Source: Gemmatimonadota bacterium (GTDB taxonomy: Bacteria; Gemmatimonadota; Gemmatimonadetes; Gemmatimonadales; Gemmatimonadaceae). Taken from it: a stretch of 64,000 nt of DNA. Position numbers and translations under genes: made by a program. Of this stretch, positions 47,246 through 63,372 are shown one piece after another. Positions within the stretch are counted from its first letter, which is position 1. Each line of letters opens with the position of its first letter. The notes beneath the pieces are model-generated. The model saw only the letters and a program-made list of their open reading frames with translations. It made no database searches and had not been told where the DNA came from. The stretch covers positions 1-64,000 of the forward strand of contig JACQBG010000042.1 of assembly GCA_016194585.1 (NCBI GenBank), written 5' to 3'.

Positions 47246-48442
47246 CTACTGCACCGCGTTGATCATGTCGAAGATCGGCAGGTACATGGCCACGACCATG
47301 CCGCCCACCACCACGCCCAGGAACACGATCATCACCGGCTCGAGCAGCGAGAGCAGCCCGCTCACCGCCGCGTCGACCTCTTCGTCGTAGAAGTCGGCGA
47401 TCTTCGCGAGCATCTCGTCGAGACCGCCGGTCTGCTCGCCCACCGCGATCATCGAGATCACCATCGGCGGGAACACTTCGCTTTTCGCGAGCGGCGCGCT
47501 GATCGTGTCGCCGCCGGCGATCGAGGCCCGGCTCGCCATGATCGCGTCGCTGATCACGCGGTTGCCCGCCGTCTTCGCCGTGATCTCGAGCCCGTCGAGG
47601 ATGCTCACGCCCGAACTGATCAGCGTGCCGAGCGTGCGCGTGAACCGGCTCACGGCGCTCTTGCGCAGCACGTCGCCGAGCACGGGCGCCTTGAGCATCA
47701 GCCGGTCGATCACCAGCTGCCCCTCGTGCGTCGCGTAGTACTTCCGCAGTCCGAATTGCGCGCCATAGCCGGCGAGCCCGATCGCCCACCAGTACGACTT
47801 GAGGATGTTCGACATCCCGATCACGACCTGCGTCGGCAGCGGCAGCGCGAGGCCGACGCTCGCGAACATGTTCTGGAACACCGGGATGACGAAGATGAGC
47901 AGCACCACGATGGCGATGCCGGCCACGCTCATGATGACGCCGGGGTAGATCATCGCCCCCTTCACCTTGCGCACGAGGGCGTCGTTCTTCTCCATGAACG
48001 TCGCCAGACGCATGAGGATCGTGTCGAGGATGCCGCCCGCCTCGCCCGCCGCCACCATGTTCACGTAGAGGTCGGTGAACGCGTTGGGGTGCTTGGCCAG
48101 CGCGTCGGCCACCGTGTGCCCCGACTCGACGTCGAACACGACCTGCCGCGTCACCGCCGAGAGCGCCTTGTTCTCGGTCTGCTTGCTCAGGATGTCGAGC
48201 GCCTGCACGAGCGGGAGCCCCGAGTTGATCATCGTCGAGAACTGCCGGGTGAAGATCACGATGTCGCGCATCGCGATCTTGCCGCCGGTCTTCACCTTCG
48301 TCTTCGACTGCTCCTCGACCTTGACGACGTTCATCCGCATCCGGCGGAGCTGCTGGACGACGTCCTCGCGGTTGGCCGCCTCGATCGTCGCGGTCTTCAG
48401 CTCGCCCTTGGCGTCGCGCGCGGTGTACGTGAATGAGGGCAT
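47246..48442 (-). CDS. pilC: Type IV pilus inner-membrane platform protein PilC
   Basis: PilC is the inner-membrane platform that transmits ATPase rotation to the growing pilus. The 398-residue product has two GspF-type helical domains (about 65-190 and 270-395), each ending in membrane helices. Typical segments are DIVIFTRQFSTMINSGLPL, TRQVVFDVESGHTVADAL, AAGEAGGILDTILMRLATF, RFTRTLGTLISSGVSILDGL and AVGEQTGGLDEMLAKIADFY. Length is standard. It is the last gene of pilB-pilT-pilC, with 39 bases after pilT. A strong hairpin lies beyond its stop. Confidence 0.96.
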   Translation of the reverse strand: MPSFTYTARDAKGELKTATIEAANREDVVQQLRRMRMNVVKVEEQSKTKVKTGGKIAMRDIVIFTRQFSTMINSGLPLVQALDILSKQTENKALSAVTRQVVFDVESGHTVADALAKHPNAFTDLYVNMVAAGEAGGILDTILMRLATFMEKNDALVRKVKGAMIYPGVIMSVAGIAIVVLLIFVIPVFQNMFASVGLALPLPTQVVIGMSNILKSYWWAIGLAGYGAQFGLRKYYATHEGQLVIDRLMLKAPVLGDVLRKSAVSRFTRTLGTLISSGVSILDGLEITAKTAGNRVISDAIMASRASIAGGDTISAPLAKSEVFPPMVISMIAVGEQTGGLDEMLAKIADFYDEEVDAAVSGLLSLLEPVMIVFLGVVVGGMVVAMYLPIFDMINAVQ

Positions 48443-48481
48443 GGGACCTTGGGGGTTGAGTGCCGTTTACCGTCAGCAGGC

Positions 48482-49645
48482 CTACCGCTTGTATCCGCCC
48501 GGCGCCGCCGGCTTCTGCGGCGCCGACGGGTCGCGCGGCGTCGTGTCGCCCTCGGAGGGACTCTTGCCGATCATGCGGAGGAACTCGTTCGGGTCGCCCG
48601 ACACGCGCAGGCACTCGTCCTCGGCGACGTCGCGCGAGACGTACAGCGCGTAGAGCGCGTCGTTGAGCGTCTGCATGCCGTGCTTCTTGCCGCTCTGCAT
48701 CGACGAGTAGATCTGGTGGATCTTGTCGTCGCGGATGAGTGCCCGGATGGCCTGCGTCACGACGAGGATCTCGGCCGCCATCGCCCGCCCCTTCCCTGTG
48801 CGCTTCGGCAGGAGCGTCTGCGTGACGACCCCCTCGAGCACGAAGGCGAGCTGAGCCCGCACCTGCGACTGCTGGTGGCTCGGGAACACGTCGATGATGC
48901 GGTTGATCGCCTCGGCCGCCGAGTTCGTGTGCAGCGTCGCGAACGCGAGGTGGCCCGTCTCGGCGATCGTGAGCGCCGCCTGGATCGTCTCGAGGTCGCG
49001 CATCTCGCCGATGAGGATCACGTCGGGATCCTCGCGCAGGGCGTACTTGAGCGCGCTCGAGAACGACTTGGTGTCGGTCCCGACCTCGCGCTGGTTGATG
49101 ATGCACCCCTGATGGCGGTGGATGAACTCGATCGGGTCCTCGACCGTGATGATGTGGCCGCGGCGCTCCTTGTTGATCTTGTCGATCATCGCGGCGAGCG
49201 TCGTGCTCTTGCCCGACCCCGTGGGGCCGGTGACGAGCACCAGCCCGCGCGGCTTCTCCGCCATCTTCACGATCGCCGGCGGCAGCCTGAGGTCCTCGGC
49301 CGTCTTGATGTTGATGGGGATCTGCCGCATCACCATCGATACGCAGCCGCGCTGCTTGAAGCAGTTGCCGCGGAACCGCGCCAGCCCCTGGATGCCGAAC
49401 GAGAAGTCGAGCTCGTCCTCCATCTCGAAACGCTTCTTCTGTTGCTCGGTGAGCACCGAGTAGGCGACCTGCAGCGTGTCCTTGGGGGTGAGCACGAACT
49501 CGTTGCGCGAGCTCACGATCTCGCCGTCGATGCGGAGCTTCGCGCGCTCGCCGGCCGTGATGTGCAGGTCAGACGCGTCGCGCTCGATCATCTCCTCGAG
49601 CAGGACGCGCAGGTTGACGGATTGGGCGGTGGAAGGAGCGGTCAT
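48482..49645 (-). CDS. pilT: Type IV pilus retraction ATPase PilT
   Basis: PilT depolymerises the pilus, powering twitching movement and DNA uptake. The 387-residue hexameric ATPase has the N-terminal PAS-like domain (ASDLHITAGERAKLRIDGEI) and Walker A GPTGSGKSTTLAAM. The Asp box is ITVEDPIEF, Walker B is DPDVILIGEMRDLET, and the His box is GHLAFATLHTNSA. The end differs from the short PilT tail by about 30 Ser/Pro-rich residues. It lies 106 bases after pilB, with a perfect 22-bp palindrome in between, and 39 bases before pilC. Confidence 0.96.
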   Translation of the reverse strand: MTAPSTAQSVNLRVLLEEMIERDASDLHITAGERAKLRIDGEIVSSRNEFVLTPKDTLQVAYSVLTEQQKKRFEMEDELDFSFGIQGLARFRGNCFKQRGCVSMVMRQIPINIKTAEDLRLPPAIVKMAEKPRGLVLVTGPTGSGKSTTLAAMIDKINKERRGHIITVEDPIEFIHRHQGCIINQREVGTDTKSFSSALKYALREDPDVILIGEMRDLETIQAALTIAETGHLAFATLHTNSAAEAINRIIDVFPSHQQSQVRAQLAFVLEGVVTQTLLPKRTGKGRAMAAEILVVTQAIRALIRDDKIHQIYSSMQSGKKHGMQTLNDALYALYVSRDVAEDECLRVSGDPNEFLRMIGKSPSEGDTTPRDPSAPQKPAAPGGYKR

Positions 49646-49718
49646 TGATGGGGAAGTCGGTTCAGGATCGGGGCGATACTCGAGCCACGAGCACAGCCGT
49701 GTACGGTGATCGGTTCAC

Positions 49719-49740
49719 GGTGAACGGTGCACCGTTCACC
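49719..49740. repeat. Perfect 22-bp palindrome between pilB and pilT
   Basis: GGTGAACGGTG is followed with no gap by its reverse complement CACCGTTCACC. It is preceded by GGTTCACGGTGAAC, a second overlapping palindrome. The position inside the pilBTC operon suggests an operator, an RNA hairpin that tunes the pilB:pilT ratio, or a short dispersed repeat. Confidence 0.6.
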
Positions 49741-49751
49741 CGCAGTCGCAG

Positions 49752-51584
49752 TTACGCCGAGGTCTCCCGGATGACCTGCTCCAGCGTCGTCACGCCCTTC
49801 AGCACCTTCAGCCAGCCGTCCATGCGCAGCGTCAGCATGCCGCACTCGATCGCGCCCTCGCGGATCTCGGCGGCGCCGACGTTCTGCAGGATGAGCTTGC
49901 GCAGCGACGGCTGCATGGCCATCACCTCGTAGAGTCCCTGCCGCCCCTTCGTGCCGCTCCCGCCGCAGGCGTCGCACCCCTTGCCGCGGAAGAAGGGCAG
50001 CTCACCGATCGTCGTGTCGAGCGAGAGGTTCGTCAGGAACGGCGCCGCCTCCTTCGTGGCGCCCTTCTTCGCGTTCTTCAGCGCCAGTTCGGTGAACCGC
50101 AGCTCGCGCAGCGTGGTCGTCTTCTTGACCTTCGCGGCGTCGAGTTCGAGGTCGTCGGGCTCGTACTTCTCCTTGCAGCTGCTGCACACGCGGCGCACGA
50201 GGCGCTGCGCGAGCACGAGGTTGAGCGCCGAGCTCACGTTGAACGGCTCGAGCCCCATGTCCATGAGGCGCGTCACCGTCTCCGGCGCCGAGTTCGTGTG
50301 CAGCGTCGAGAGCACCATGTGCCCCGTAAGCGCGGCCTTGATGGCGATGCCGCCCGTCTCGAGGTCGCGGATCTCGCCCACCATGATGATGTTCGGGTCC
50401 TGCCGCAGGAACGCCTTCAGCGCCGCGGCGAACGTCATCCCGATCTCGTTGCGCACGAGCACCTGGTTCACGCCGTAGAGGTTGTACTCCACGGGGTCCT
50501 CGGCCGTCATGATGTTCGTGTCGATCGAGTTCACCTTCGACAGGCACGAGTACAGCGTCGTCGTCTTGCCCGAGCCCGTGGGGCCGGTGACGAGCACCAT
50601 GCCGTACGGGTTCGAGACCGCCTCCATCAGCTCCTTCTCGGCCTGCGGCTCGATGCCGAATTTCTCGAGGTCGAGCGTCAGGTTCCCCTTGTCGAGGATC
50701 CGGAGCACGACCTTCTCGCCGAAGATCGTCGGGAGCGTCGACACGCGGAAGTCGATCACCTTCTTGCCCATCTTCAACTTGATGCGCCCGTCCTGCGGCA
50801 CCCGCCGCTCGGCGATGTTGAGGGCGCTCATGATCTTGAAGCGTGAGACGAGCGCCGCCTGCATCTTCTTGGGCGGCTTCATGATCTCGGTGAGCTCGCC
50901 GTCGATGCGGTAGCGCACCCGGATGTCCTGCTCGAAGCACTCGAAGTGGATGTCGCTCGCGCCCTTCTTCACGGCGTCGGTGAGCAGCGCGTTGATCAGC
51001 TTGACGACGGGCGCCTCGTCCATCTGCGCGGCGAGCGCCGCGGCGCCGACCTCCTCCTCCTTCGTCTCGACGACCTCGAGGTCTTCCTCGGTCTCGAGCC
51101 CCGCGATGTCCTCGAGCAGCGTCGACATCTGCGCGTCCGTCGACTCGTACAGCTTCTCGAGCGCGTTGCGCAGGGTGAACTCGCCGGCGATCACCGGGAA
51201 GATGTCGTACCGGGTGATGAACTTGAGGTCGTCGATGACGGCGAAGTTCGTCGGGTCGGCCATCGCCACGGTGAGCGTGCGACCGTCGCGCTTCAGCGGC
51301 AGCACGAGGTTCTTCATCGCCAGCTCGCCGGGGATCATCTTCACGACCTTCGGGTCGAACTCGAACTTCGAGAGGTCGACCGCCTGCATCTTGTACTGGC
51401 GGGCCAGCGTGCGGATGAGGTCGATCTCCTGGATGAAGCCGAGCTTCACCAGGTTGTATCCCACGCGCGTCCCGTTCTGGCGCTGTTCCTGAAGGGCCTT
51501 GTCGAGCTGCTCGCGCGCGATCAACCCCTCTCTCAGGAGGAGGTCGCCAATGCGCTCACCGGATGCGGGTGCAGGAGATGCCAT
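49752..51584 (-). CDS. pilB: Type IV pilus assembly ATPase PilB
   Basis: PilB drives pilin polymerisation. The 610-residue product has the MshEN N-terminal domain (about 10-170, RIGDLLLREGLIAREQLDKAL, a c-di-GMP-binding-type region in other bacteria) and the ATPase core with Walker A GPTGSGKTTTLY. The Asp box includes MTAEDPVEYN, Walker B is DPNIIMVGEIRDLETGG, and the His box is GHMVLSTLHTNSA. Four cysteines form a zinc site (CSSC about 498-501 and CDAC about 565-568), as in PilB/GspE but not PilT. It heads the pilB-pilT-pilC operon; a TATAGT element lies about 50 bases before the ATG at 51584. Confidence 0.96.
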   Translation of the reverse strand: MASPAPASGERIGDLLLREGLIAREQLDKALQEQRQNGTRVGYNLVKLGFIQEIDLIRTLARQYKMQAVDLSKFEFDPKVVKMIPGELAMKNLVLPLKRDGRTLTVAMADPTNFAVIDDLKFITRYDIFPVIAGEFTLRNALEKLYESTDAQMSTLLEDIAGLETEEDLEVVETKEEEVGAAALAAQMDEAPVVKLINALLTDAVKKGASDIHFECFEQDIRVRYRIDGELTEIMKPPKKMQAALVSRFKIMSALNIAERRVPQDGRIKLKMGKKVIDFRVSTLPTIFGEKVVLRILDKGNLTLDLEKFGIEPQAEKELMEAVSNPYGMVLVTGPTGSGKTTTLYSCLSKVNSIDTNIMTAEDPVEYNLYGVNQVLVRNEIGMTFAAALKAFLRQDPNIIMVGEIRDLETGGIAIKAALTGHMVLSTLHTNSAPETVTRLMDMGLEPFNVSSALNLVLAQRLVRRVCSSCKEKYEPDDLELDAAKVKKTTTLRELRFTELALKNAKKGATKEAAPFLTNLSLDTTIGELPFFRGKGCDACGGSGTKGRQGLYEVMAMQPSLRKLILQNVGAAEIREGAIECGMLTLRMDGWLKVLKGVTTLEQVIRETSA

Positions 51585-51617
51585 CGGGCCTTGGACTCAC
51601 GGTCGGGCGTGCAAGGA

Positions 51618-51661
51618 CCGGTGCCGGCACAACTATAGAGAGGCGTCGTGTGCCGGCCCGG
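51618..51661 (-). promoter_or_regulatory. Inverted repeat with TATAGT element upstream of pilB
   Basis: CCGGTGCCGGCAC and GTGCCGGCCCGG form an imperfect inverted repeat whose loop contains TATAGT on the minus strand (51637 to 51632), a good -10 match 48-53 bases before the pilB start. The -35 region is G+C-rich and unconvincing. The repeat might be an operator over the promoter, or a terminator for the upstream ComEA-like gene. Confidence 0.35.
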
Positions 51662-51693
51662 TTTTGTGAAGCTGTCCGACGGTGGGAGTCGTG

Positions 51694-52560
51694 TCAAGGA
51701 CGAACGTCACCCCGTGGGCGGCGCCGCACCCGGAAGACACGCGTCTCCCCCGCACTCCCCAGACGTGGCGTGAGGGAAAACGTCACATAGGGAGCCAGCC
51801 TCCGGGCGAGCGTGGCCCCGATGCCGCTCACCCGGCGGAGCGCCTCGATGCTCCCGAACGGGCCACGCTCGGCGCGGTCGTTGACGATCCGGTAGGCCAA
51901 CTCCGCATCGACGTACGGCAGCCGCTCGATCTCGGCGACGCCGGCGACGTCGAGGTCCACGGGCGGACGGGCGGCGCTCATCCGTCGAACCCGGACGGTC
52001 GCGCCCGCGCCCGGCTCCTCGGCGCCGGCCGCGGGCCCGGCCTTGAACGCCGACACGGCCGCGCGCGCCGCGCGTTCGCGCTCGCGGCGCTCGGCGAGCG
52101 CCTGCGACTCGGCGCGCGCCGCCCGGGCGTTCGCGGACCCCCGCGCGGCGTCCTCGAGCGCGACGCGCCGCCGATAAGAGGCGCGGCGGTCGTTCGGGTC
52201 GTCGCCGCCGGCAGTGGGAGCGGCCACGCGACGCGAACCGCGCGGAGCTGGGTACGCCGGCGCGCCCGAGACCGACTCCTCACCGGGTGCGGCGCCGGCC
52301 GCGCCACGCCGCGCGGGGGCGCGAGTGGCGCGTGCCCCGCCGGCGCTCGAATCCGCGCCGCGGCGGCGACGCGCGCGCTTGGCGCCGCCGGTGGCGATGG
52401 CGGAATCCACCGCCTCGATCTGGCGCGCGAGCTCGACCCCACCGGCAGCGATCGCGGGGGCCTGCGCCCGGCGGTCGTCGCGGCACCCGCGCACCGCCAC
52501 GCCCAGCGCCGCCAAGCTGGCGAGGAAGATCAACGCACGCCGTTCACCCGAGGTTGCCAT
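51694..52560 (-). CDS. Helix-hairpin-helix protein, ComEA-like
   Basis: A 288-residue protein with a hydrophobic N-terminal anchor (LIFLASLAALGVAV), a long low-complexity Arg/Ala/Gly-rich middle (about 55-195) and a C-terminal HhH DNA-binding domain (about 203-265: VDLDVAGVAEIERLPYVDAE, then GSIEALRRVSGIGATLARRL). The end is like ComEA, which binds incoming DNA in the periplasm. The basic, disordered middle and the total length are atypical; ComEA is usually shorter. It lies upstream of the pilBTC operon on the same strand, which supports a DNA-uptake role with the pilus. The frame is well conserved only in the HhH region, so function of the middle is unknown. Confidence 0.72.
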   Translation of the reverse strand: MATSGERRALIFLASLAALGVAVRGCRDDRRAQAPAIAAGGVELARQIEAVDSAIATGGAKRARRRRGADSSAGGARATRAPARRGAAGAAPGEESVSGAPAYPAPRGSRRVAAPTAGGDDPNDRRASYRRRVALEDAARGSANARAARAESQALAERRERERAARAAVSAFKAGPAAGAEEPGAGATVRVRRMSAARPPVDLDVAGVAEIERLPYVDAELAYRIVNDRAERGPFGSIEALRRVSGIGATLARRLAPYVTFSLTPRLGSAGETRVFRVRRRPRGDVRP

Positions 52561-52645: not shown

Positions 52646-53611
52646 CTACTGCCGCACGAGCGAGAGCGCCACGTCGCCGACGATCTTGAGCGATGCGGCG
52701 GAGATCTTGTCCATCGTGTCGCTCGTGGCGTGGTGGTACGCCTGCCCGGCCACCACGGCCTCGTGGTTCGGATACTCGAGGTCGATGACGTCGATCACCC
52801 GCAGCCCCGCCTTGATGAGCGGGATGTGGTCGTCGGTGATCGGGTAATCGCCGGCGCGCGGCACGAAGGTCGACTCGTAGCCGAGGTCCTTGGCCGTGCT
52901 CCAGACGCGCTGCACCACCTCGGGCGCGGCCTTCATCGAGTTCGGCTCCTGGAAGATCTGCAGTTCCTTGTCGCCGATCATGTCGAAGAGCACGCCGAAG
53001 AGCGGCTTGTAGTCCGGGTCCGGGAGGTGCGTCGCGAAGTACTCCGACCCGATGAGCACGTCGATGTCGGGCGGCCCGAACTCGCCCCAATCCTCGCCGT
53101 CGACGAGGAGGAGGTCGACCCCCACCGTCGGCGGCGTCTTCTTGAGCTGGTCGGCGAGGGCGAGGAAGAGGCCGACCCCGCTCGCGCCGTCGTTGGCGCC
53201 GTCGAACGGCTTGTCGCGGTTGGCCGGCACGGGGTCGGAATCGGCCCGCGGGCGCGTGTCCCAGTGCGTCAGGTACAGCACGCGGTTCTTCTCGTTCGGC
53301 CGGAACCGCGCGATGATGTTGCGCATCGGGAGCTTCTCCCCCTTCTGCGTGGTGTGCGTCCACGTCTGCTCGATGACGGTGTCGGCCGTCGCGCGCAGCC
53401 GTGCGGCGATCCAGTCGCCCGCCTTCCGCGCCGCCTCGGTGCCGGGGATGCGCGGGCCGAAGGCGACGTTCTGCCGCGCGTAGCTGAGGGCCGAGTCGCC
53501 GCTGAACCGCGTGGTGGCGGTGGCGGCGGGGGTCTTCTCCCCCCCGCCGCAGGCGATGGCGAACAAGGCGGCCGAGGCGAACGCGAGCGTCGTGCGTGGA
53601 CGGCGGATCAT
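52646..53611 (-). CDS. Glutaminyl-peptide cyclotransferase-type M28 enzyme, probable lipoprotein
   Basis: Predicted to convert N-terminal glutamine of exported proteins to pyroglutamate. The 321-residue product has a lipoprotein-type leader ending FAIAC (Cys21), so it would sit on a membrane facing the periplasm. The M28 fold is in its cyclase variant: His116 in LTHWDTRP, Asp141 in FDGANDGASG, Glu173 in LLVDGEDWGE and His262 in ITDDHIPLIKAG. The DDHIP segment is the hallmark of glutaminyl cyclases (a single zinc bound by Asp, Glu and His) and is absent from the M28 peptidase at 5391. Its ATG overlaps the sprA stop by four bases, so the two are co-translated. Confidence 0.88.
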   Translation of the reverse strand: MIRRPRTTLAFASAALFAIACGGGEKTPAATATTRFSGDSALSYARQNVAFGPRIPGTEAARKAGDWIAARLRATADTVIEQTWTHTTQKGEKLPMRNIIARFRPNEKNRVLYLTHWDTRPRADSDPVPANRDKPFDGANDGASGVGLFLALADQLKKTPPTVGVDLLLVDGEDWGEFGPPDIDVLIGSEYFATHLPDPDYKPLFGVLFDMIGDKELQIFQEPNSMKAAPEVVQRVWSTAKDLGYESTFVPRAGDYPITDDHIPLIKAGLRVIDVIDLEYPNHEAVVAGQAYHHATSDTMDKISAASLKIVGDVALSLVRQ

Positions 53612-56600
53612 CGGAGCTCTCCGGCGAAGAACGCGATCTGGAGCACCGTCGAGAACACGACCTGCGTGAACCGGCGGTTGAGGTTGTTGTCGAACGTCGT
53701 GATGTGCGCGCCCTGCAGCGAGAACGTGAGGTTCTCGGCGATGTCGGTGTCGGCATTCAAGCTAAACGCCTGGCGCCCGTTGTCGGCCAGCCTGCTCTTC
53801 GTACCCGCGATCAGGTCGTTGATCACCCAGGTGGTCGCCGACTGCTGCTGCCACCCGAACCGGGTGCGCAGCGGGCTCCGCATCTGCCAGGTGGCGGGGA
53901 GCGGGAAAGTGCGCGAGACGTCGGCGTTCATCTCGTTCGTCTTGCTGTCGGCGATGGTGCCGGGGAGCGAGTCGAGCCGGTAGCTGGTGCTCACGTTGAA
54001 CGACGCGCGCAGCCGTCCCTGGTCGGCGAACTCGACGTTGGCGCCGAGCGGGTAGCTGATGACGCGCGACGTCCGGATGTCGGCAGGGGTGTCGAGCGTC
54101 GACGAGGGCACGGCGGTGCGTTGCTGGGTGATGGCGAGCCGCGCCGACCAGCCGAGCGACGTGATGAAGTCCTGCAACGACTTGGGGTGCAGGGTGCCAC
54201 GCACCGTCAGGTCGGGGAGGGTCACCTGTTCGCCGTCGACGACGCCCTGCGTCTGGTCGGCGCGGCGGATCCAGTTGCGCGTCGCCACGCGGCGCGTGCC
54301 GGCGTCGATGACGATCCCCATCGGGAGCCGCACCCCCGTGTGCAGCGCGAGTTGCGCGTTGCTCCCCGCGGTGGTGGCGAGCTGGTCGTGGTCGCGCAGG
54401 AAGGCGTCGAGGCCGCCGAGCCCGAACTGGTACTCGAGCCCCGGCGTGAACGGGGTGCCGTCGAACGCCGAGGTGAGGGTGCGGGAGTAGTTGATGTCGA
54501 AGGGGAGCAGCGTGGTGGAGAGGCGGGCCCGCGACGCGGAGTCGGAGATCCAGCCGCCGGCGACGCGGGCGAGGTCGATCTGCGCGCCGCTCGTCAGCTG
54601 CTGCATGGCGTTCACGCGCCGCGGCAGCCGGTACACCCCGAGCGAGTCGTACTCGCGCAGCACCTGCGGCGCGTTGGGGTCGCGCAGCAGGCCGTAGCTC
54701 GTCGTGAGGTCGGCGCGCGGGCGGAACCAGCCGCGGAGCTGCGGGGAGAACGAGTAGGTCGAGCTCACGTACCGTTCGCGCTCGAGGCCGCCGACGCCGA
54801 GGAGGGTGGTGCGTTCGGCGTTCGCCGTCGCGGCGGTGAGCGACGTGTCGGTGTAATGGCGCAGGTCGCGGCTCGAGGCTACTTCCCAGCGGGCGCTGAG
54901 CGCGTCGACGGGACGCAGCTCGAGCGACGTCGTGTTGCGCCAGAGGTTCGTCGCGCCGTTCACGGTGCGCGCCGTGTCGGTGAGCGCAGCGGCCGGCGTG
55001 GTGTAACTCGATCGTTCGTCGTCACCCTTCGCATAGCTCGAGTTCACGTGGATCGTGACCGGCTGCACGTTGAGTTGCGAGGCGCGCATCGCCTGCACCA
55101 TCTCGGCGCTGGCGAGCCACTCCGGGAGCCCGGCGAGCGCGTGCGTCCACCATTCGGGCATGGCGCGCCGCGCCGTGCTGGCGCCGAGCAGCCAGTCGAC
55201 CCCGGCCGTGAAGAGCGAACTCTTCCCGCTGTCGAACTCGGAACGGGTCGAGGCCGTGTTGACCGCCGTCGTGACGACGAGCCCGTTGACGATCGGCGCC
55301 ACCCATCCGTGATCGAGCGGCGTCGTGCGCCGCAACGAGAGGGCGACGCTGGTGAGGTCGGCCTTCGGCGTGCGCAGGCCGTCGATGTCGCTCCCGCGGA
55401 TGTCGGAGTGCGTGACGAATTGCGGCGTCATGGCGCTCGACGAGTGCACGATCGTCACCGGCATGGTGAGCCCGAGTTGCGGCGCCAGCTTCTCGAGGCG
55501 GAGCGTGGAGCTGATGTCGAGCATGTCGTCGCCGACGTTGGTCGGCACGTCGCCCAGCTGGCGGAAGTTCGGGTCGCGCTGCGACATCGAGACGTGCAGC
55601 GTGCCGACGTCACCGGCGACGAGGTCGACCCCCGCGTGGCCGGCGTAGCCCGGCGTGTTGACGGCGCTGGCGAGACGGATGTCGTCGACCCACACCTCGA
55701 GCGTGTCGCCCGCGAGGATGCGGCTCGCGCCGAGTCCGCCCGAATCGACGCGCACGATGCCCACGGCCAGTTCCTGCACGGCGGCGAGGTTCGGCGCGCT
55801 CACGGCGGGGTCGATCGTGTACACCATGTAGCCGTCGGCGCAGGCGGCGCGGCGGTGCGCCGCCTGTCCGAGCGGGAGCCCGCTCGCGACGATGAGCGCC
55901 GAGTCCACTCCGGTGCACGAGATGGAGTCGGGACGGTTGCGGAGCCACGAGTTCTGGAGCTTCGAGCGGAGCGCCTGGAGCTTGTCGAAGTCGACACGCA
56001 CCTCGGGAAGCCACGCCCCCTGCCCCGTGCCCGCGTTCACCGACGTGCGGTACATGTAGAAGTTGTCGGCGTCGCGGCCGATCTTCACGAAGAACTGCAG
56101 CTCGCCGGTCGCCCCCCACCCGTTGCCGCGCCCCTTCGCCCACGCGCGCAGCTCGCGGTACTGGAGGAAGTTCTTGGCGCCCTCGGGGAACCGGTAGTAC
56201 GACTCGATGCGCTCGTACTTGTTGAGCTGCGTCGCCGTGAGGCGCATCGACCGCTCGTTGATGACGATGCGCTGGTTCTCGATGCCGATGAGCTTCTGGT
56301 TGGGCTGGTCGACCACGCCGGGGGGCGAGTCGTACACGAGCCCGCTCAGCGAGTCCTTGTCCTGCGTGCCGATCGTGCTCGCGAAGAGGAGGCCGATCGA
56401 GGGGCGCTGGCCGCCGATGCCGCTCAGCGCGCGGTCGGCGCGGCGGAGCCATGGCGCGCCGCGCAACTTGAGCCCGGCGATCGCCACCTGCGAGAACGCG
56501 TTGTCGGGGAGCGCGTCGCCGGAGATCATCGTGAGGCGCATCGTCCGCACGCGCCGGATGAGCGGGCCGCCGTTCACCGTGTCGGTGGGGGCGCCGAAGG

Positions 56601-59600
56601 GGACGCGCACGAACACCCAGCAGGTGCTCCCCGGCGTGCCGGTGGTGTCGGAGTCGACCGCGCCGCAGCCGCCGACCCGCACGTACGTCTTGGGGTCGGC
56701 GAGGTTCACGACGTAGCGCAGCAACCGCTCCTGCTCGCGCTGCGACGAGTCGAAGTTGAGCACGCCGTCGCCGTCGAGGTCCCACTCGTCGAGGCGGCCG
56801 TTGGCCACGGTGCAGTTGTTGCGCGTGTCGCCGAGCGGCACGAGACGCGTGTTGCCCCGCGAGCACATGGGGAAATTCGTGAGCGTGCCGCTGCTGTCGG
56901 GGGAGGCGAAGAGGAGCCGCGGGATGCGGTCGCCCGGGAGGCCGATGTCGTTCTTCTCCTGGTTGAAGGCGCGCGAGAACGGGTCGCGCTCGGTCTGCAG
57001 CGTGTCGCGGCCGAGGATCACGCGCCCCGTATACGACGAGTCCACGACGCCGCCGTTCTTCGTCACGATCAACTGCTTGGGCCCGACGGCGACGGTGTTC
57101 TCGGAGACGTCGCCGAGGTCGAACACGAGCGTCGGGTTCCGCTGGCGTCGGAGCGATGCCGTGTCGATGCGCACCCAGAACTCGATGTCGTCCACGCGCG
57201 AGAGGTCGGCACCGGAGCCGCCGAGCGGCTGCCGGATGCTGCGCCACCGCTTGCCCGGCGTGAGGTTCTGCGTGGCCCACTGCCACTTGTGGTTGAGGTC
57301 GTTGTAGGCGCCGCCGACGGCGAGCGGATAGAGCGTGAGCCAGAGCACCTTCTCCGGCGACTGGATCCCCGCCCCGGCGATGTTCGTGAGCGGGTCGATC
57401 TGCGGCAGGTACACGACCACCGTCTTGCCGTTGGGCGCGAGGGCGTTGTTCTGCCACGCCATCGTCGCGGCGCGCGAGAGGTCGAGCGTCGTCGCGCCGC
57501 CGATGCGCGCCGAGAGCTTGCGCCCGAGCGCGGGCTGGCTCGAGAGGTACCAGTTCGGGTCGTCGATCGTGAGCCCGCCCACGCCGGCGTCCCCCTCGAA
57601 CGACTCGAGCCACGCCTGCCCGCCGCCGCCGAGCTGCGGCCGGCTCGTCGCGAGCTCCGCCTCGAGCCGGAGCAGCGACGGCGCCTTCGCGTTCGCCCCC
57701 TTGAGCGCGCCGAGCGCGCGCGACAGCGCCGGCACCTCCCAGTGGAACGCGCCGTTCACGCCGGCGAGCAACGACGATTGCGATTCGTACCCGAGCGTCG
57801 GCCGCGTGAGCGAACTCGACTGCCGCTGCCCGATCGCCAGCATGTTGAGGTCGCCGTTCCTGAACGGATACGTCGACGCGAAGCCGAAGATCGACGTCGG
57901 CGTCGTCGGCACGAGCGAGGGATTCTCCTCGAACCGCGCCGTCACCGTGCGCTGCCGCGAGAAGAGCGAGTCGGGATGGAGGAAGGTCACCATGCCCACT
58001 TCGTACTCGATCGAATAGTCGCGGTCGCGCTTGAGCACGGTGCCGTCATCGAGCACGAGGTGCTCGGAGAGCGGCCGGATCTGGTTCACGCCGAGGGAGA
58101 GCGTCGTGTTGCCGGTGCCCCCCTCCGACTGGTAGCCGAGCCGCAGGTGGTACACGACCTGCGGATGCTGCGGCGAGTACAGGTACTCGCTCGGCGACGC
58201 GTAGATGTCGTCGTTCGCGGGGTTGCCGGCCGGCTGCGCCAGCCCGGCGCGCGCGAACGGCTGCAGCGACGGGAAGATGATGTAGTGGTCGGCGATGGCG
58301 CGCGTGCTCGCCGAGAGCCCGATCGCGGCGACCGGGTCGCCGGGGCGCGGCCAGAGGCGGTTATCGTAGTCGAACTGGGTCGGGTTCGAGAGCTGGGCCA
58401 GCCCGAACAGCTGCAGGAAGGTCTGCGCGCTCCCGGCGAGCGGCTTCTGCTGGTCGAAGGTGGCACCCGTGAAGACGCCGAGCGACACGCTCTCGCGCAC
58501 GACCTCGTCGCCCCCCACGCGGTACGCCGACCGGATCTCGCGGAAGAACGCGTCGTCCCCCGGGCGGACGTTCGGATCCCAGAGGAGCGCCGCCCACTGA
58601 TCGCGCGGCGTGAAGTTCACGTCGGGGGTGCCTCCCGTCGAGAGCACCGTCGTGTCGCGCCCGGCGATGCGCACGGTGTAGGCCACGACGAGCCGGTCGC
58701 TCCCCGGCGAGAGCGGCTGCTTGAGCGCCACCCAGAGCTGCGAGGGGTCGACGACGTAGTCGATGTTCTCGCGCAGCGGTTCGTAGATCTGCCCGCGCCG
58801 CGACGACGGGTCGCCGATGAGTCGGAACTGCGGGCCGTTCGGGTTGGGCGGCTGCCCGCCGAGGAGCAGGCGGTAGAGGGAGACCTTCACCGGGCGCACG
58901 GAGTCGGGGAGCGACGCCGCCAGCTGTCGCAATTGCGTCCCGTTGAGGATGTCGATGTTCGGGTAGCCCGCCAGGCGGCGCGGGTCGACGACGAAGAAGA
59001 AGCGCCGCGCCTCGACCTCGTAGTCGTTCACGTCGCGCGCCACGGGTTGCCGCGACCCCATCGCGCCGATCGTGTACGGCCGCTCGCGCACCACGTTGCC
59101 GGTCTGCTGGGCGAAGATCCCGCGCATGCGCAGCTTGCCGAACTGCGCCACCGCCTGCACCCCGTAATTGCCCTGCGGGATGCCGCTCGTGATGAACCGG
59201 CTCGCCGGGAGCTCGAAGGAGACGTTGCCGAGGTCGACGCGCTGCAGCCAGTCGCCCTTCTTCCCCTCGTAATAGAGCGAGATGCGGTTCGACGCGTCCA
59301 TCTCGCGCTGCGAGTCGTAGTCCATGTTCACGTGCACGCGATCGGCGACGGTGCCGCCTGTCTTCACGTTGAATTGGAAGTCGAACGCCGGCTGGAAGCT
59401 GGCGGTGCACTGCGAGGCGAGGCTGAAGAACTGGCTGGCGACGCACCGCTCGTTCTGGGTGCGGTCGAGCTTCGACTCGAGCCGTCCGTTCATCTGGAGG
59501 CCGAGGTCGCTGGCCGGCCCGAACAGCCCCCCGGACTTGGTGGAGTCGGGGCTGGGCTTGGTCGTGTCGGCCCGTGCCTTCGCGGAATCAGCCCCCGCTT

Positions 59601-59673
59601 GAGCGCCCAGCGGCGGCGCGAGGGCCAACAGGAAGACGGCGATCGGGAGGCTGAACGGTCGCAGAGGGCGCAC
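53608..59673 (-). CDS. sprA: SprA/Sov-family outer-membrane translocon (type IX secretion)
   Basis: SprA is the giant barrel through which type IX substrates cross the outer membrane. The 2021-residue product has a signal peptide ending PPLGA and Gln25, then SprA landmarks: VQAVAQFGKLRMRGIFAQQ, VVYHLRLGYQSEGG, LDDGTVLKRDRDYSIEYEVG (split), WLESFEGDAGVGGL, EKVLWLTLYPLAVGGAYNDL, EFWVRID...FDLGDVSEN and a late LRGAPWLRR. Length is slightly below flavobacterial SprA (about 2400). The start is GTG at 59673, since TTG at 59676 is weaker. Its stop overlaps the glutaminyl cyclase start. It diverges from lptF across 137 bases. No PorV, GldKLMN or C-terminal-domain substrate is in the window. Confidence 0.88.
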   Translation of the reverse strand: MRPLRPFSLPIAVFLLALAPPLGAQAGADSAKARADTTKPSPDSTKSGGLFGPASDLGLQMNGRLESKLDRTQNERCVASQFFSLASQCTASFQPAFDFQFNVKTGGTVADRVHVNMDYDSQREMDASNRISLYYEGKKGDWLQRVDLGNVSFELPASRFITSGIPQGNYGVQAVAQFGKLRMRGIFAQQTGNVVRERPYTIGAMGSRQPVARDVNDYEVEARRFFFVVDPRRLAGYPNIDILNGTQLRQLAASLPDSVRPVKVSLYRLLLGGQPPNPNGPQFRLIGDPSSRRGQIYEPLRENIDYVVDPSQLWVALKQPLSPGSDRLVVAYTVRIAGRDTTVLSTGGTPDVNFTPRDQWAALLWDPNVRPGDDAFFREIRSAYRVGGDEVVRESVSLGVFTGATFDQQKPLAGSAQTFLQLFGLAQLSNPTQFDYDNRLWPRPGDPVAAIGLSASTRAIADHYIIFPSLQPFARAGLAQPAGNPANDDIYASPSEYLYSPQHPQVVYHLRLGYQSEGGTGNTTLSLGVNQIRPLSEHLVLDDGTVLKRDRDYSIEYEVGMVTFLHPDSLFSRQRTVTARFEENPSLVPTTPTSIFGFASTYPFRNGDLNMLAIGQRQSSSLTRPTLGYESQSSLLAGVNGAFHWEVPALSRALGALKGANAKAPSLLRLEAELATSRPQLGGGGQAWLESFEGDAGVGGLTIDDPNWYLSSQPALGRKLSARIGGATTLDLSRAATMAWQNNALAPNGKTVVVYLPQIDPLTNIAGAGIQSPEKVLWLTLYPLAVGGAYNDLNHKWQWATQNLTPGKRWRSIRQPLGGSGADLSRVDDIEFWVRIDTASLRRQRNPTLVFDLGDVSENTVAVGPKQLIVTKNGGVVDSSYTGRVILGRDTLQTERDPFSRAFNQEKNDIGLPGDRIPRLLFASPDSSGTLTNFPMCSRGNTRLVPLGDTRNNCTVANGRLDEWDLDGDGVLNFDSSQREQERLLRYVVNLADPKTYVRVGGCGAVDSDTTGTPGSTCWVFVRVPFGAPTDTVNGGPLIRRVRTMRLTMISGDALPDNAFSQVAIAGLKLRGAPWLRRADRALSGIGGQRPSIGLLFASTIGTQDKDSLSGLVYDSPPGVVDQPNQKLIGIENQRIVINERSMRLTATQLNKYERIESYYRFPEGAKNFLQYRELRAWAKGRGNGWGATGELQFFVKIGRDADNFYMYRTSVNAGTGQGAWLPEVRVDFDKLQALRSKLQNSWLRNRPDSISCTGVDSALIVASGLPLGQAAHRRAACADGYMVYTIDPAVSAPNLAAVQELAVGIVRVDSGGLGASRILAGDTLEVWVDDIRLASAVNTPGYAGHAGVDLVAGDVGTLHVSMSQRDPNFRQLGDVPTNVGDDMLDISSTLRLEKLAPQLGLTMPVTIVHSSSAMTPQFVTHSDIRGSDIDGLRTPKADLTSVALSLRRTTPLDHGWVAPIVNGLVVTTAVNTASTRSEFDSGKSSLFTAGVDWLLGASTARRAMPEWWTHALAGLPEWLASAEMVQAMRASQLNVQPVTIHVNSSYAKGDDERSSYTTPAAALTDTARTVNGATNLWRNTTSLELRPVDALSARWEVASSRDLRHYTDTSLTAATANAERTTLLGVGGLERERYVSSTYSFSPQLRGWFRPRADLTTSYGLLRDPNAPQVLREYDSLGVYRLPRRVNAMQQLTSGAQIDLARVAGGWISDSASRARLSTTLLPFDINYSRTLTSAFDGTPFTPGLEYQFGLGGLDAFLRDHDQLATTAGSNAQLALHTGVRLPMGIVIDAGTRRVATRNWIRRADQTQGVVDGEQVTLPDLTVRGTLHPKSLQDFITSLGWSARLAITQQRTAVPSSTLDTPADIRTSRVISYPLGANVEFADQGRLRASFNVSTSYRLDSLPGTIADSKTNEMNADVSRTFPLPATWQMRSPLRTRFGWQQQSATTWVINDLIAGTKSRLADNGRQAFSLNADTDIAENLTFSLQGAHITTFDNNLNRRFTQVVFSTVLQIAFFAGELR

Positions 59674-59810
59674 CAAAGCCCGAAGTCGGGGTATCTACTA
59701 CCTTGCCTGAAGGTGGTCGCCGGGTGGAATATACGAGTGCCCCCGGACCCTACAACCCTTTGTGGTGCGCGGATTTCCTCGCCAGTGGCGGGACCCGCCG
59801 GACCCCCCCT

Positions 59811-61448
59811 TTGCGACTCAAGATCGTCACCCGGTACATCCTGAAGGAGCATCTGGGGCCGCTGGTGTTCAGCCTGTCGGCGCTCACCTCGCTCCTTCTG
59901 TTGAATTACGTCGCGAAACGGCTGGGCGAGCTCGTCGGCAAGGGGCTCCCGCCGCGGGTCATCGCGGAGTTCCTGCTCCTGTCGGTGCCGTTCACCGTCG
60001 CCATGACGCTCCCCATGGCGGTGCTCGTCTCCACCCTGCACGCCTTCAGCCGGATGGCGTCGGAGAACGAGATCACGGCCTTCAAGGCGAGCGGGATCTC
60101 CCTCCGCCGGCTCATCGTGCCGGTGATCGTGTCGGCGAGCATCCTCACGCTCGTGATGGTGTGGTTCAACGACCAGGTGCTCCCGGCGGCGAACCACCGC
60201 CTCAGCACCCTCTCGAACGACATCGCGCGCAAGAAGCCGACGTTCGCGCTGAAGGAGCAGATCATCAACGAAGTGGTGCCGGGACGGCTCTACCTCCGCA
60301 CGGCGCACCTCACGCGCATCGGCAGCCGGATGAAGGACGTCACCCTCTTCGACATGGCCGACCCGCAGCACCGTCGCACGATCCGCGCCGACAGCGGCCT
60401 GCTCGAGCTGACGACGGATGGCCGCGACCTCCTCATGACGCTGTTCTCGGGCAACGTCATCGAGCTGACGGCCACCGACCCGTCGCGCCTGCAGCGCAAC
60501 TTCTTCACCACCGACCGCTTCCGCGTGCGGGGGATCGGGAACAGCCTCGAGCGCGACTCGGTGGGCGGCGAGAAGAGCGACCGCGAGATGACGGTGTGCG
60601 AACTCGAGCGGAAGGTGCACCGCGCCCAGTTCGTCCGAGACAGCAACTTCACCGCGCTCAAGACGCTCGACCCGGTGCTCTACAAGAGCCTGCCGCAGCG
60701 CCCGGTGAAGGAGGGGATCGGCAACGCCTACTGCCGGGCGCTGTACTGGTGGACCGACCTGCGGCTCGTGAAGCGGGCGCAGGCCGAGACGCTCCCGCAG
60801 GGTGGCGCGGCCCAGGCGAGCACGCGCGCCGACGCCAAGCTCCCCGTCCCGCCGCAGGCCCCGCCGAAGACCGCAGCCGCGGCGCAAGGGGCGGTGCCCG
60901 CGCAAGCACCGCCGGCCCAGGCACCGCCCGCGCAGGCGCCGATCGCGCATCCGGTCGTGCCCCCCGCCACGATCCCACCGTCGGCCGGTCTCGAGCCGGG
61001 CCCCGACGGCGCCATCAACGTCGCCCAACGGTCGGTGCTCGGCGAGAGCGTGCGCATCTCGATCGAGCAGGCGCAGGCGATGATCGACGGCAACCAGGTG
61101 GAGATCGAGAAGAAGTTCGCGATCGCCGCCGCCTGCGTGATCTTCGTGCTGCTCGGGGCGCCCATCGCGCTGCGCTTCCCGCGCGGCGGCGTGGGGCTCA
61201 CGATCGGCGTGAGCCTCGGCGTCTTCGGCATCTACTACGTGGGTCTCATCGCCGGCGAGGACCTCGCCCGGCGCGGCATGCTCTCGGCGTTCTGGGCGAT
61301 GTGGACGGCGAACATCATCCTGTTCGTGGTGGGCGCGGCGCTCACGGCGCGCCTCGGGCACGAGGGGACGACGAGCCGCGGCAGCGAGACGAGCGAATGG
61401 TGGCGGCGGCTCATGGACCGCCTCGGCCGCGGCGAGGGCGCCACATGA
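59811..61448 (+). CDS. lptF: LPS export permease LptF with proline-rich insertion
   Basis: LptF, with LptG and the LptB ATPase, extracts lipopolysaccharide from the inner membrane. The roughly 545-residue product has three N-terminal membrane helices, the periplasmic beta-jellyroll, and three C-terminal helices (FAIAAACVIFVLLGAPIALR, GLTIGVSLGVFGIYYVG). Typical segments include FSRMASENEITAFKASGIS and FNDQVLPAANHRLS. Residues of about 340-395 form a Pro/Ala/Gln-rich insertion (PAQAPPAQAPPAQAP) in the periplasmic part that standard LptF lacks. TTG at 59811 was chosen because MRLKIVTRYILKEHLG is the normal N-terminus. Its stop overlaps lptG by four bases. Confidence 0.9.
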   Translation: MRLKIVTRYILKEHLGPLVFSLSALTSLLLLNYVAKRLGELVGKGLPPRVIAEFLLLSVPFTVAMTLPMAVLVSTLHAFSRMASENEITAFKASGISLRRLIVPVIVSASILTLVMVWFNDQVLPAANHRLSTLSNDIARKKPTFALKEQIINEVVPGRLYLRTAHLTRIGSRMKDVTLFDMADPQHRRTIRADSGLLELTTDGRDLLMTLFSGNVIELTATDPSRLQRNFFTTDRFRVRGIGNSLERDSVGGEKSDREMTVCELERKVHRAQFVRDSNFTALKTLDPVLYKSLPQRPVKEGIGNAYCRALYWWTDLRLVKRAQAETLPQGGAAQASTRADAKLPVPPQAPPKTAAAAQGAVPAQAPPAQAPPAQAPIAHPVVPPATIPPSAGLEPGPDGAINVAQRSVLGESVRISIEQAQAMIDGNQVEIEKKFAIAAACVIFVLLGAPIALRFPRGGVGLTIGVSLGVFGIYYVGLIAGEDLARRGMLSAFWAMWTANIILFVVGAALTARLGHEGTTSRGSETSEWWRRLMDRLGRGEGAT

Positions 61449-62533
61449 AGCGGCGCTGGCTCCGGCAGCTCGACCGGTACGTCTTCGTCGAGTATCTCAA
61501 GATCCTCGCGGCGACGGTGCTCGGCTTCCCCGTGCTCGTCACGGTGATCGACATCACGGAGAAGCTCGACAAGTACCTCGCCCGGCACCTCACGCTGCCG
61601 ACGATCCTCAAGGCGTACGTGCTCAACGTGCCGTACACGATGGGGCTCGTGCTCCCCGCGGCGGTGCTCTTCGCGACGGTGTTCGCGATCGGCGCGTTCA
61701 CGCGCCACTCCGAGATCACGGCGGCCAAGGCGAGCGGCATCAGCTTCCACCGCTTCATCCGGCCGATCGCCGTCGGCTCGGCCATCGCGACGCTGCTCGG
61801 GCTCGCGCTCGCCGTCGTGACGCCCGACGCCAACGCGAAGCGCGACGAGATCCTGCTCGAGAAGAAGTCGGACCTGAACAACCGGTTCAACTTCACGTTC
61901 GCGACGGACGAGTCGCGCACGTACACCATCACCACCGCCGACAAGCAGCGCGGGCAACTCGAAGGGGTGGTGGTGGAACGCAAGGGCAAGGGGCTGGACT
62001 TCCCCACCTACCTGCTCGAGGGGGCGACGGCGACCTACTCCCGCAAGCAGGGGAACTGGCTGCTCCGGCAGGGGAGCGCGCACGTGCTGCTCAGCGACTC
62101 GGCGAACTTCACGATGCAATTCGACTCGCTGCGCGACCGGCACTTCAAGGAGGAGCCGGCGCACCTGATGTCGAACCCGCAGGCCCCCGACGAGATGGGG
62201 TTCCGCGACCTGCAGCGGTACATCGTGGCGATGGAGCGCTCGGGGAGCGACGTGAACCAGCTCCGCGTCGAGCGCATGCTGAAGATCGCGATCCCGGCGA
62301 CGTGCATCATCATCATGCTGTTCGGCGCGCCGCTCGCGACGAGCAATCAGCGCGGCGGCGCCGCCTACGGCATCGGCGTGAGCCTCGCCACGACGATCGT
62401 GTTCCTGATGCTCGTGCAACTCACGCAGGCGATCGGCAACAAGGGGTTGGTGGTGCCGGAACTCGCCGCGTGGCTCCCCGGCATCGCGTTCGGGATCGTC
62501 GGCGGGATCCTCCTCTACCGGGTGCGCACGTGA
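61445..62533 (+). CDS. lptG: LPS export permease LptG
   Basis: The 362-residue partner of LptF in the lipopolysaccharide transporter. Six predicted membrane helices flank a periplasmic jellyroll (about 120-265). Family motifs include LDRYVFVEYLKILAATVLG, VIDITEKLDKYLARH, FTRHSEITAAKASGISFHRF and the closing GGILLYRVRT. Start ATG at 61445 overlaps the lptF stop (ATGA), and its stop overlaps the mlaE start (GTGA), so lptF-lptG-mlaE-mlaD are translated as one coupled unit. LptB and LptC are not in the window. Confidence 0.92.
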   Translation: MKRRWLRQLDRYVFVEYLKILAATVLGFPVLVTVIDITEKLDKYLARHLTLPTILKAYVLNVPYTMGLVLPAAVLFATVFAIGAFTRHSEITAAKASGISFHRFIRPIAVGSAIATLLGLALAVVTPDANAKRDEILLEKKSDLNNRFNFTFATDESRTYTITTADKQRGQLEGVVVERKGKGLDFPTYLLEGATATYSRKQGNWLLRQGSAHVLLSDSANFTMQFDSLRDRHFKEEPAHLMSNPQAPDEMGFRDLQRYIVAMERSGSDVNQLRVERMLKIAIPATCIIIMLFGAPLATSNQRGGAAYGIGVSLATTIVFLMLVQLTQAIGNKGLVVPELAAWLPGIAFGIVGGILLYRVRT

Positions 62534-63372
62534 ACGAGCCGTGGGCGCACAAGCAGACGGACTCCTACCCGGTGTTCACGCGGGGGAGCATCAAGTTCTT
62601 CCGCCGGATGTCGCGGTTCTCGCTCGGCTTCCTCGGCGGCGTGGGGCAGCGTGTGCTGTTCCTGCGCGACGTGCGCCGGGCGCTGGCGGAGCCGCAGACG
62701 TATCTGCCGCTGGTGATGCCGCAGATGCGGGCCATCGGGGTCGACTCGGTGCCGCTCACGATCATGGTGGCGGCGTTCATCGGCGGCGTCATCTCGCTGC
62801 AGATCCGCTACCAGCTCTTCCCGGGCATCCAGCTCTCGATCGTCGGCCTCTCGGTGCGGCAGATCGTGATCCTCGAGACGGGGCCGCTCCTCACGGGTCT
62901 CGTGCTGGCCGGTCGCGTCGGGGCGAAGATGACGGCCGAGATCGGCACGATGCGCGTCACGGAGCAGATCGACGCGCTCGAGACGCTGGCCTACGACCCC
63001 GTGGCGTACCTGGTCATCCCGCGGCTCATCGCGGCGATCGTGATGTTGCCGATCCTGGCGATCATCGCCAACGTATTCGGCGTGTTCGCCGGCATGGGGG
63101 CGGCGGTGTTCCTGACCGACGTGCAGATGTCGCAGTTCCTCGACGGCGTCCGATTGGGGTTCGACCAATTCCAGGTGACGTACAGCCTCATCAAGGCCAC
63201 CTTGTTCGGGGCGGCCATCGCCTATCTTTGTACGTACGAGGGTTACGTGACCGAGAGTGGCGCCGAGGGGGTGGGCAAGAGCACCGCCAAGGCCGTCGTC
63301 ATCTCGTCCATCTGGATCCTCATCCTTGACGCCCTGACGGCCGTCCTTCTCGCACCGTACTTGCAGGGATGA
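62530..63372 (+). CDS. mlaE: MlaE-family lipid-transport permease
   Basis: The permease of an Mla-type ABC transporter that moves phospholipids between inner and outer membranes. The 280-residue product has the MlaE pattern: five to six helices with QMRAIGVDSVPLTIMVAAFI, GGVISLQIRYQLFPG, LETGPLLTGLVLAGRVGAKM, TAEIGTMRVTEQIDALETLA and YDPVAYLVIPRLIAAIVM, the RVGAK...AEIG segment being diagnostic. Start GTG at 62530 overlaps lptG; stop overlaps mlaD. The ATPase MlaF, usually next to MlaE, is not between E and D here; it could lie further downstream outside the window. Confidence 0.93.
   Translation: MNEPWAHKQTDSYPVFTRGSIKFFRRMSRFSLGFLGGVGQRVLFLRDVRRALAEPQTYLPLVMPQMRAIGVDSVPLTIMVAAFIGGVISLQIRYQLFPGIQLSIVGLSVRQIVILETGPLLTGLVLAGRVGAKMTAEIGTMRVTEQIDALETLAYDPVAYLVIPRLIAAIVMLPILAIIANVFGVFAGMGAAVFLTDVQMSQFLDGVRLGFDQFQVTYSLIKATLFGAAIAYLCTYEGYVTESGAEGVGKSTAKAVVISSIWILILDALTAVLLAPYLQG

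Follow-up and report, generated by a model that had tools for sequence, protein, structure and literature searches.

Does a cyclase gene that overlaps a secretion-channel gene belong to a dedicated machine for export and maturation, or does an enzyme for exported proteins in general share an operon with the channel? The question is raised by a stretch of 64,000 nucleotides from a Gemmatimonadota bacterium (contig JACQBG010000042.1, positions 1 to 64,000; hereafter the window), in which a homologue of sprA is followed by a gene for an M28-family protein of glutaminyl-cyclase type (QC). The original prediction combined the two genes, together with Gln at position +1 of exported proteins, into one export-and-maturation system. 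Q-rule biology and a lipoprotein QC are known in P. gingivalis (PMC5837995, PMC10653852). The Q-rule paper covers Bacteroidetes, Chlorobi, Spirochaetes, Chlamydiae and cyanobacteria, its main text being without Gemmatimonadetes, and for this class the open-licence PMC papers yielded nothing relevant on cyclases or on type IX secretion, an absence that is no proof of novelty. Based on our findings, we consider the following answer, taken as a whole, to be the probable one: QC belongs to a general pyroglutamate maturation system, and its gene and sprA are members of one old operon, within an ancient conserved envelope-biogenesis block of the class Gemmatimonadetes; the two do not form an obligate export-and-maturation machine.

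Results

Conservation of the sprA-QC junction

Both open reading frames are present as first described, and the M28 gene does start inside the sprA stop, with ATGA read from 53611 to 53608 (Table 1). The sprA start is GTG at 59673, and a TTG lies in frame at 59676.

Table 1. Features of the sprA-QC locus in the window
Feature	Position	Strand	Remarks
M28-family glutaminyl-cyclase-type lipoprotein gene (QC)	52646..53611	-	321 aa; ATG start; lipobox AIAC; Zn ligands D141/D174/H294 by alignment
sprA homologue	53608..59673	-	TIGR04189; 2021 aa; signal peptide ..PPLGA/QAGAD (cleavage at the slash), predicted +1 Gln
ATGA stop/start overlap of sprA and QC	53608..53611	-	
ComEA-like helix-hairpin-helix protein	51694..52560	-	Member of the conserved block
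pilB homologue (type IV pilus ATPase)	49752..51584	-	Conserved block; named from sequence and neighbourhood
pilT homologue	48482..49645	-	Conserved block; named from sequence
pilC homologue	47246..48442	-	Conserved block; named from sequence
lptF (LptF/LptG family permease)	59703..61448	+	Divergent neighbour of sprA
lptG homologue	61445..62533	+	Named from sequence and position
mlaE homologue	62530..63372	+	

By itself, an overlap of four bases is ordinary. Exactly this overlap is found in 8 of the 23 same-strand neighbour pairs within the window, lptF-lptG and lptG-mlaE next door likewise overlap by four bases, and it is the commonest overlap in these genomes (299/1439 same-strand pairs, or 21%, in 25 sampled stretches). 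Its conservation between sprA and QC is beyond chance: of the 24 sprA-QC junctions read in related genomes, 20 have NTGA at exactly -4, and the remaining four are at -1, +46, +70 and +70. Against the 21% background the binomial p is about 1e-10, a value that is only nominal because the junction sequences are related. The start codons at -4 are candidates, and a later start is possible in some junctions.

The gene order is conserved as well. Among 149 genomes of the class Gemmatimonadetes, SprA was found in 103 and M28-QC in 81. About 60 genomes with both genes could be assessed, and in 42 of these the two are direct neighbours on one strand; adjacency was tallied by hand from coordinates, with the end of SprA extrapolated where only its N-terminal piece was listed. 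By family, the counts are 15/16 in f1, 13/13 in f2, 2/2 in f3, 3/3 in f5, 3/3 in f6, 1/1 in f9, 5/6 in f10 and 0/15 in f7. Family f7, where QC sits elsewhere than sprA in all 15, accounts for most of the exceptions; outside it about 44 genomes are assessable, and 42 of them show the adjacency. The suggested survey of gene order in related genomes therefore shows a class-wide neighbourhood, and it rules out a chance arrangement or one unique to this strain. Stretches read at full length contain a conserved block in which mlaE-lptG-lptF diverges from sprA-QC-(comEA)-pilB-pilT-pilC. The pilC-pilT-pilB genes and the ComEA-like protein (47246-52560 in the window) are linked to sprA-QC across the class, and a connection of the block with pili or natural transformation is possible.

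How much meaning does this coupling carry? One possibility that we take seriously, while holding it less likely than our proposal, is gene-order inertia: the block would be old and stable, and an overlap that is the commonest spacing in compact genomes would say nothing about the pair. The background frequency of such overlaps agrees with this idea, as does the conservation of the neighbouring lpt and pil genes, which extends to genomes where sprA or QC is missing. It is harder to reconcile with the exact overlap being kept in 20/24 junctions down to 46% protein identity. Inertia is compatible with our proposal for the enzyme and denies meaning to the coupling only.

A putative glutaminyl cyclase, its probable stand-in and the predicted +1 glutamine

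The M28 protein had been called cyclase-type, and its sequence agrees well with this name: it belongs, as a lipoprotein, to the bacteroidal type II glutaminyl-cyclase group, with a predicted cyclase activity. It matches Peptidase_M28, and its nearest solved structures are Bacteroidota glutaminyl cyclases from Parabacteroides, Tannerella and Porphyromonas (3tc8, 6qro, 6qql and 7cje; E 2e-58 to 3e-62), while an aminopeptidase structure matches only at 1e-7. With PgQC (PG2157) and TfQC (PDB 6qql/7cje, 6qro) it shares the M28 family, a lipoprotein character, Asp/Asp/His zinc ligands, D-G and DDH. The zinc ligands of PgQC are Asp149, Asp183 (bacteroidal-specific) and His299, and Gly150 sets it apart from aminopeptidases, which have Asn/Asp there (PMC7948796). 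In the window protein the corresponding ligand columns (D141, D174 and H294) are invariant in the alignment, and the Gly after the first ligand is present (D141-G142, invariant in 13 sequences). DGED occurs in 34/34 and DDH in 32/34 M28-QC sequences, and 31/34 have a lipobox-like motif. M28 paralogues of QC-less genomes have SDH and mostly GEE; as candidate cyclases of those genomes they were rejected, their best matches being SDH-type, not DDH.

The bacteroidal type II QCs differ in coming from another phylum and in one position. Trp298 and Phe294 of PgQC, shared with animal QCs, are replaced in the window protein by His293 at the Trp position and by a residue other than Phe. His is also found there in the other sequences read from f1, the family of the window's genome, and Trp in f2, f3, f10 and f7. 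Because the Trp-to-His change is conserved in f1, it is probably functional; the activity of this lineage's enzyme could therefore differ, and we call the protein cyclase-type. The change, at residue 293, adjoins the zinc-binding His and among the families read is conserved in f1 only.

Many genomes without the M28 enzyme carry a type I (plant/Xanthomonas) glutaminyl cyclase, PF05096, a five-bladed beta-propeller that is unrelated to the M28 enzyme and catalyses the same reaction. PF05096 was present in each of the 4 SprA-positive, QC-negative genomes that were checked first; among 16 with M28-QC, 4 had it as well. Across the 149 genomes, 69 have M28-QC only, 39 PF05096 only, 12 both and 29 neither (Fisher p 4.9e-8). 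The PF05096 users cluster by clade (genus g4, one f7 genus and one f4 genus), so this p-value overstates independence, and there are fewer independent replacements than the counts suggest. PF05096 had no match in the window's genome. In Bacteroidetes the two cyclase types likewise segregate by clade, with plant-type QCs in Flavobacteriia (PMC5837995).

For the substrate side, 64-100 kb from each of 25 genomes was analysed, using a gene finder and a signal-peptide rule of our own in place of SignalP. Gln follows the AxA-type site in 147/298 signal-peptide candidates vs 27/298 in the mature part (pooled p 1e-28), and in a control segment taken from these proteins Gln accounts for 4-15%. By the same rule the count is 56/112 in Bacteroidota (50%, control 4%) and 7/29 in E. 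coli (24%, control 21%), the latter a small sample, from which Gemmatimonadota differ at p 0.01. Because the predictor is crude, these shares are lower bounds and not Q-values. In the window, Gln lies near the expected site of exported proteins starting at or near 944, 6531, 9807, 11226, 14323, 19294, 25150 and 44836, and of SprA, so the +1 Gln pattern, SprA included, holds at predicted positions. About half of the crude candidates carry Gln, as in Bacteroidota, which would extend the Q-rule. One PF05096 genome (G013) had no Gln enrichment in 10 candidates, several of which are probably false calls.

Grouped by cyclase, the Gln share is 47% with M28-QC only, 42% with PF05096 only, 56% with both and 63% (n=35) with neither. 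The genomes in the last group (G138, G146 and G018) keep a strong Gln pattern; therefore +1 Gln alone does not require a detected cyclase. A third cyclase that escaped detection, assembly gaps or spontaneous cyclisation could account for them.

Taking these data together, we consider it unlikely that the M28 protein is simply a periplasmic aminopeptidase and that the Gln reflects only a preference of the cleavage site, at most followed by spontaneous cyclisation. M28 QCs and aminopeptidases have conserved active-site residues in common, so that activity is not readable from those alone (PMC5837995), and both the His at the Trp298 position in f1 and the three genomes that keep the Gln pattern with neither cyclase would fit such an enzyme. 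The other signatures are those of the bacteroidal QC group, unlike the SDH-type paralogues, and the replacement of the enzyme by a cyclase family without homology to it is in keeping with selection for cyclisation.

SprA, separate losses and the comparison with Bacteroidota

The window SprA scores 603 bits against TIGR04189 over about 1400 positions, above the cut-off, and the F. johnsoniae SprA chain matches it at E 1e-22. Bacteroidota SprA is longer (about 2400 aa) and scores 2220-2997 bits (18/19). Of the type IX secretion system, the SprA/Sov translocon and PorV are shared: two PorV-family genes over the cut-off are found in the window's genome, and PorV exceeds the cut-off in 14/16 SprA-positive vs 0/4 SprA-negative genomes (p 0.003), being weak or absent where sprA was lost. 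The GldM/PorM motor was found in 0/20 Gemmatimonadota by a profile that finds it in 7/8 Bacteroidota. Type A sorting domains are nearly absent, with one sub-threshold match in the window's genome to TIGR04183, the family searched. With no GldM found and hardly any type A sorting domains, the SprA of these genomes is thus a divergent channel, and its energisation is uncertain. The SprA of G037 (C1:3015965-3021550) and of genus g4 (putative Gemmatimonas) reaches 875-1251 bits for its main piece; this is a far better fit to the Bacteroidota SprA profile than that of other members, and g4 is without M28-QC.

Either gene has been lost without the other repeatedly, which argues against an obligate sprA-QC unit. 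In G116, G008, G133 and G058, sprA is cleanly missing between lptF and pilB and QC is kept; in G037, G135, G143 and G006, QC is missing and sprA is kept. Of the 149 genomes, 63 have both, 40 SprA only, 18 QC only and 28 neither, a weak association (QC in 63/103 SprA-positive vs 18/46 SprA-negative genomes, p 0.02). The Gln pattern survives in genomes without sprA (54% in G116, 38% in G008 and 44% in G133). Here the original prediction of one export-and-maturation system does not hold: QC stays in place in genomes from which sprA has disappeared, sprA is retained where QC was lost or replaced by the unrelated cyclase, and the Gln pattern is kept in all loss cases. Since either gene is often lost alone, the clients of the capping enzyme are most likely exported proteins in general.

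The same prediction held that coupling of sprA and a cyclase gene was not known from Bacteroidota, and in the flanks of 80 Bacteroidota QC loci (1.39 Mb; about half with the full 10 kb on both sides) we found sprA in none. Five positive controls with Bacteroidota SprA were recognised by the HMM used, and of 20 of those genomes that were tested, 19 encode SprA elsewhere. The PgQC gene is the first of three in an operon that also contains PG_2158 and hemG (PMC10653852); the window QC gene follows sprA instead.

For these reasons we regard as quite unlikely a dedicated unit in which capping by QC is reserved for the SprA channel, for its cargo or its components: the adjacency outside f7, the overlap and the weak association of the two genes would all suit it, but not the repeated clean losses, the Gln pattern after loss of SprA, the separate QC of f7 or the Bacteroidota loci. 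More speculative still, and improbable as a whole, is a scheme in which SprA and PorV export without a GldM-type motor and the cyclase, translated together with SprA, adds the cap to SprA or to its clients while they are being exported. Capping of this kind would be one specialised branch of pyroglutamate formation across the phylum, and a further cyclase would act where both known ones are absent.

Discussion

Returning to the general maturation system, which we favour, we propose a mechanism for the capping of exported proteins in Gemmatimonadetes. The gene order, the overlap, the sequence signatures, the loss pattern and the Gln enrichment are observed; we infer the enzymatic activity of QC, pyroglutamate on proteins, and the co-transcription and co-translation of QC with sprA. 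Signal peptidase I would expose +1 Gln on many exported proteins, SprA among them. The QC lipoprotein, which may face the periplasm, would then cyclise the exposed Gln to pyroglutamate. The pyroglutamate would protect exported proteins from aminopeptidases, so that the scheme may be the counterpart in Gemmatimonadota of the Q-rule in Bacteroidetes, with which it shares Gln, predicted here, at +1 of many signal peptidase I substrates. QC and sprA probably share a transcript and are probably translated together by way of the four-base overlap; QC would serve general Sec export independently of SprA. In several lineages, the unrelated beta-propeller cyclase may take over.

The Q-rule, described as a feature of Bacteroidetes, would thus be present in a second phylum, as predicted from sequence. 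Two unrelated cyclases that appear to stand in for each other, together with the operon link, provide an independent case for asking why exported proteins are capped, and natural strains in which each gene is missing allow tests of that question.
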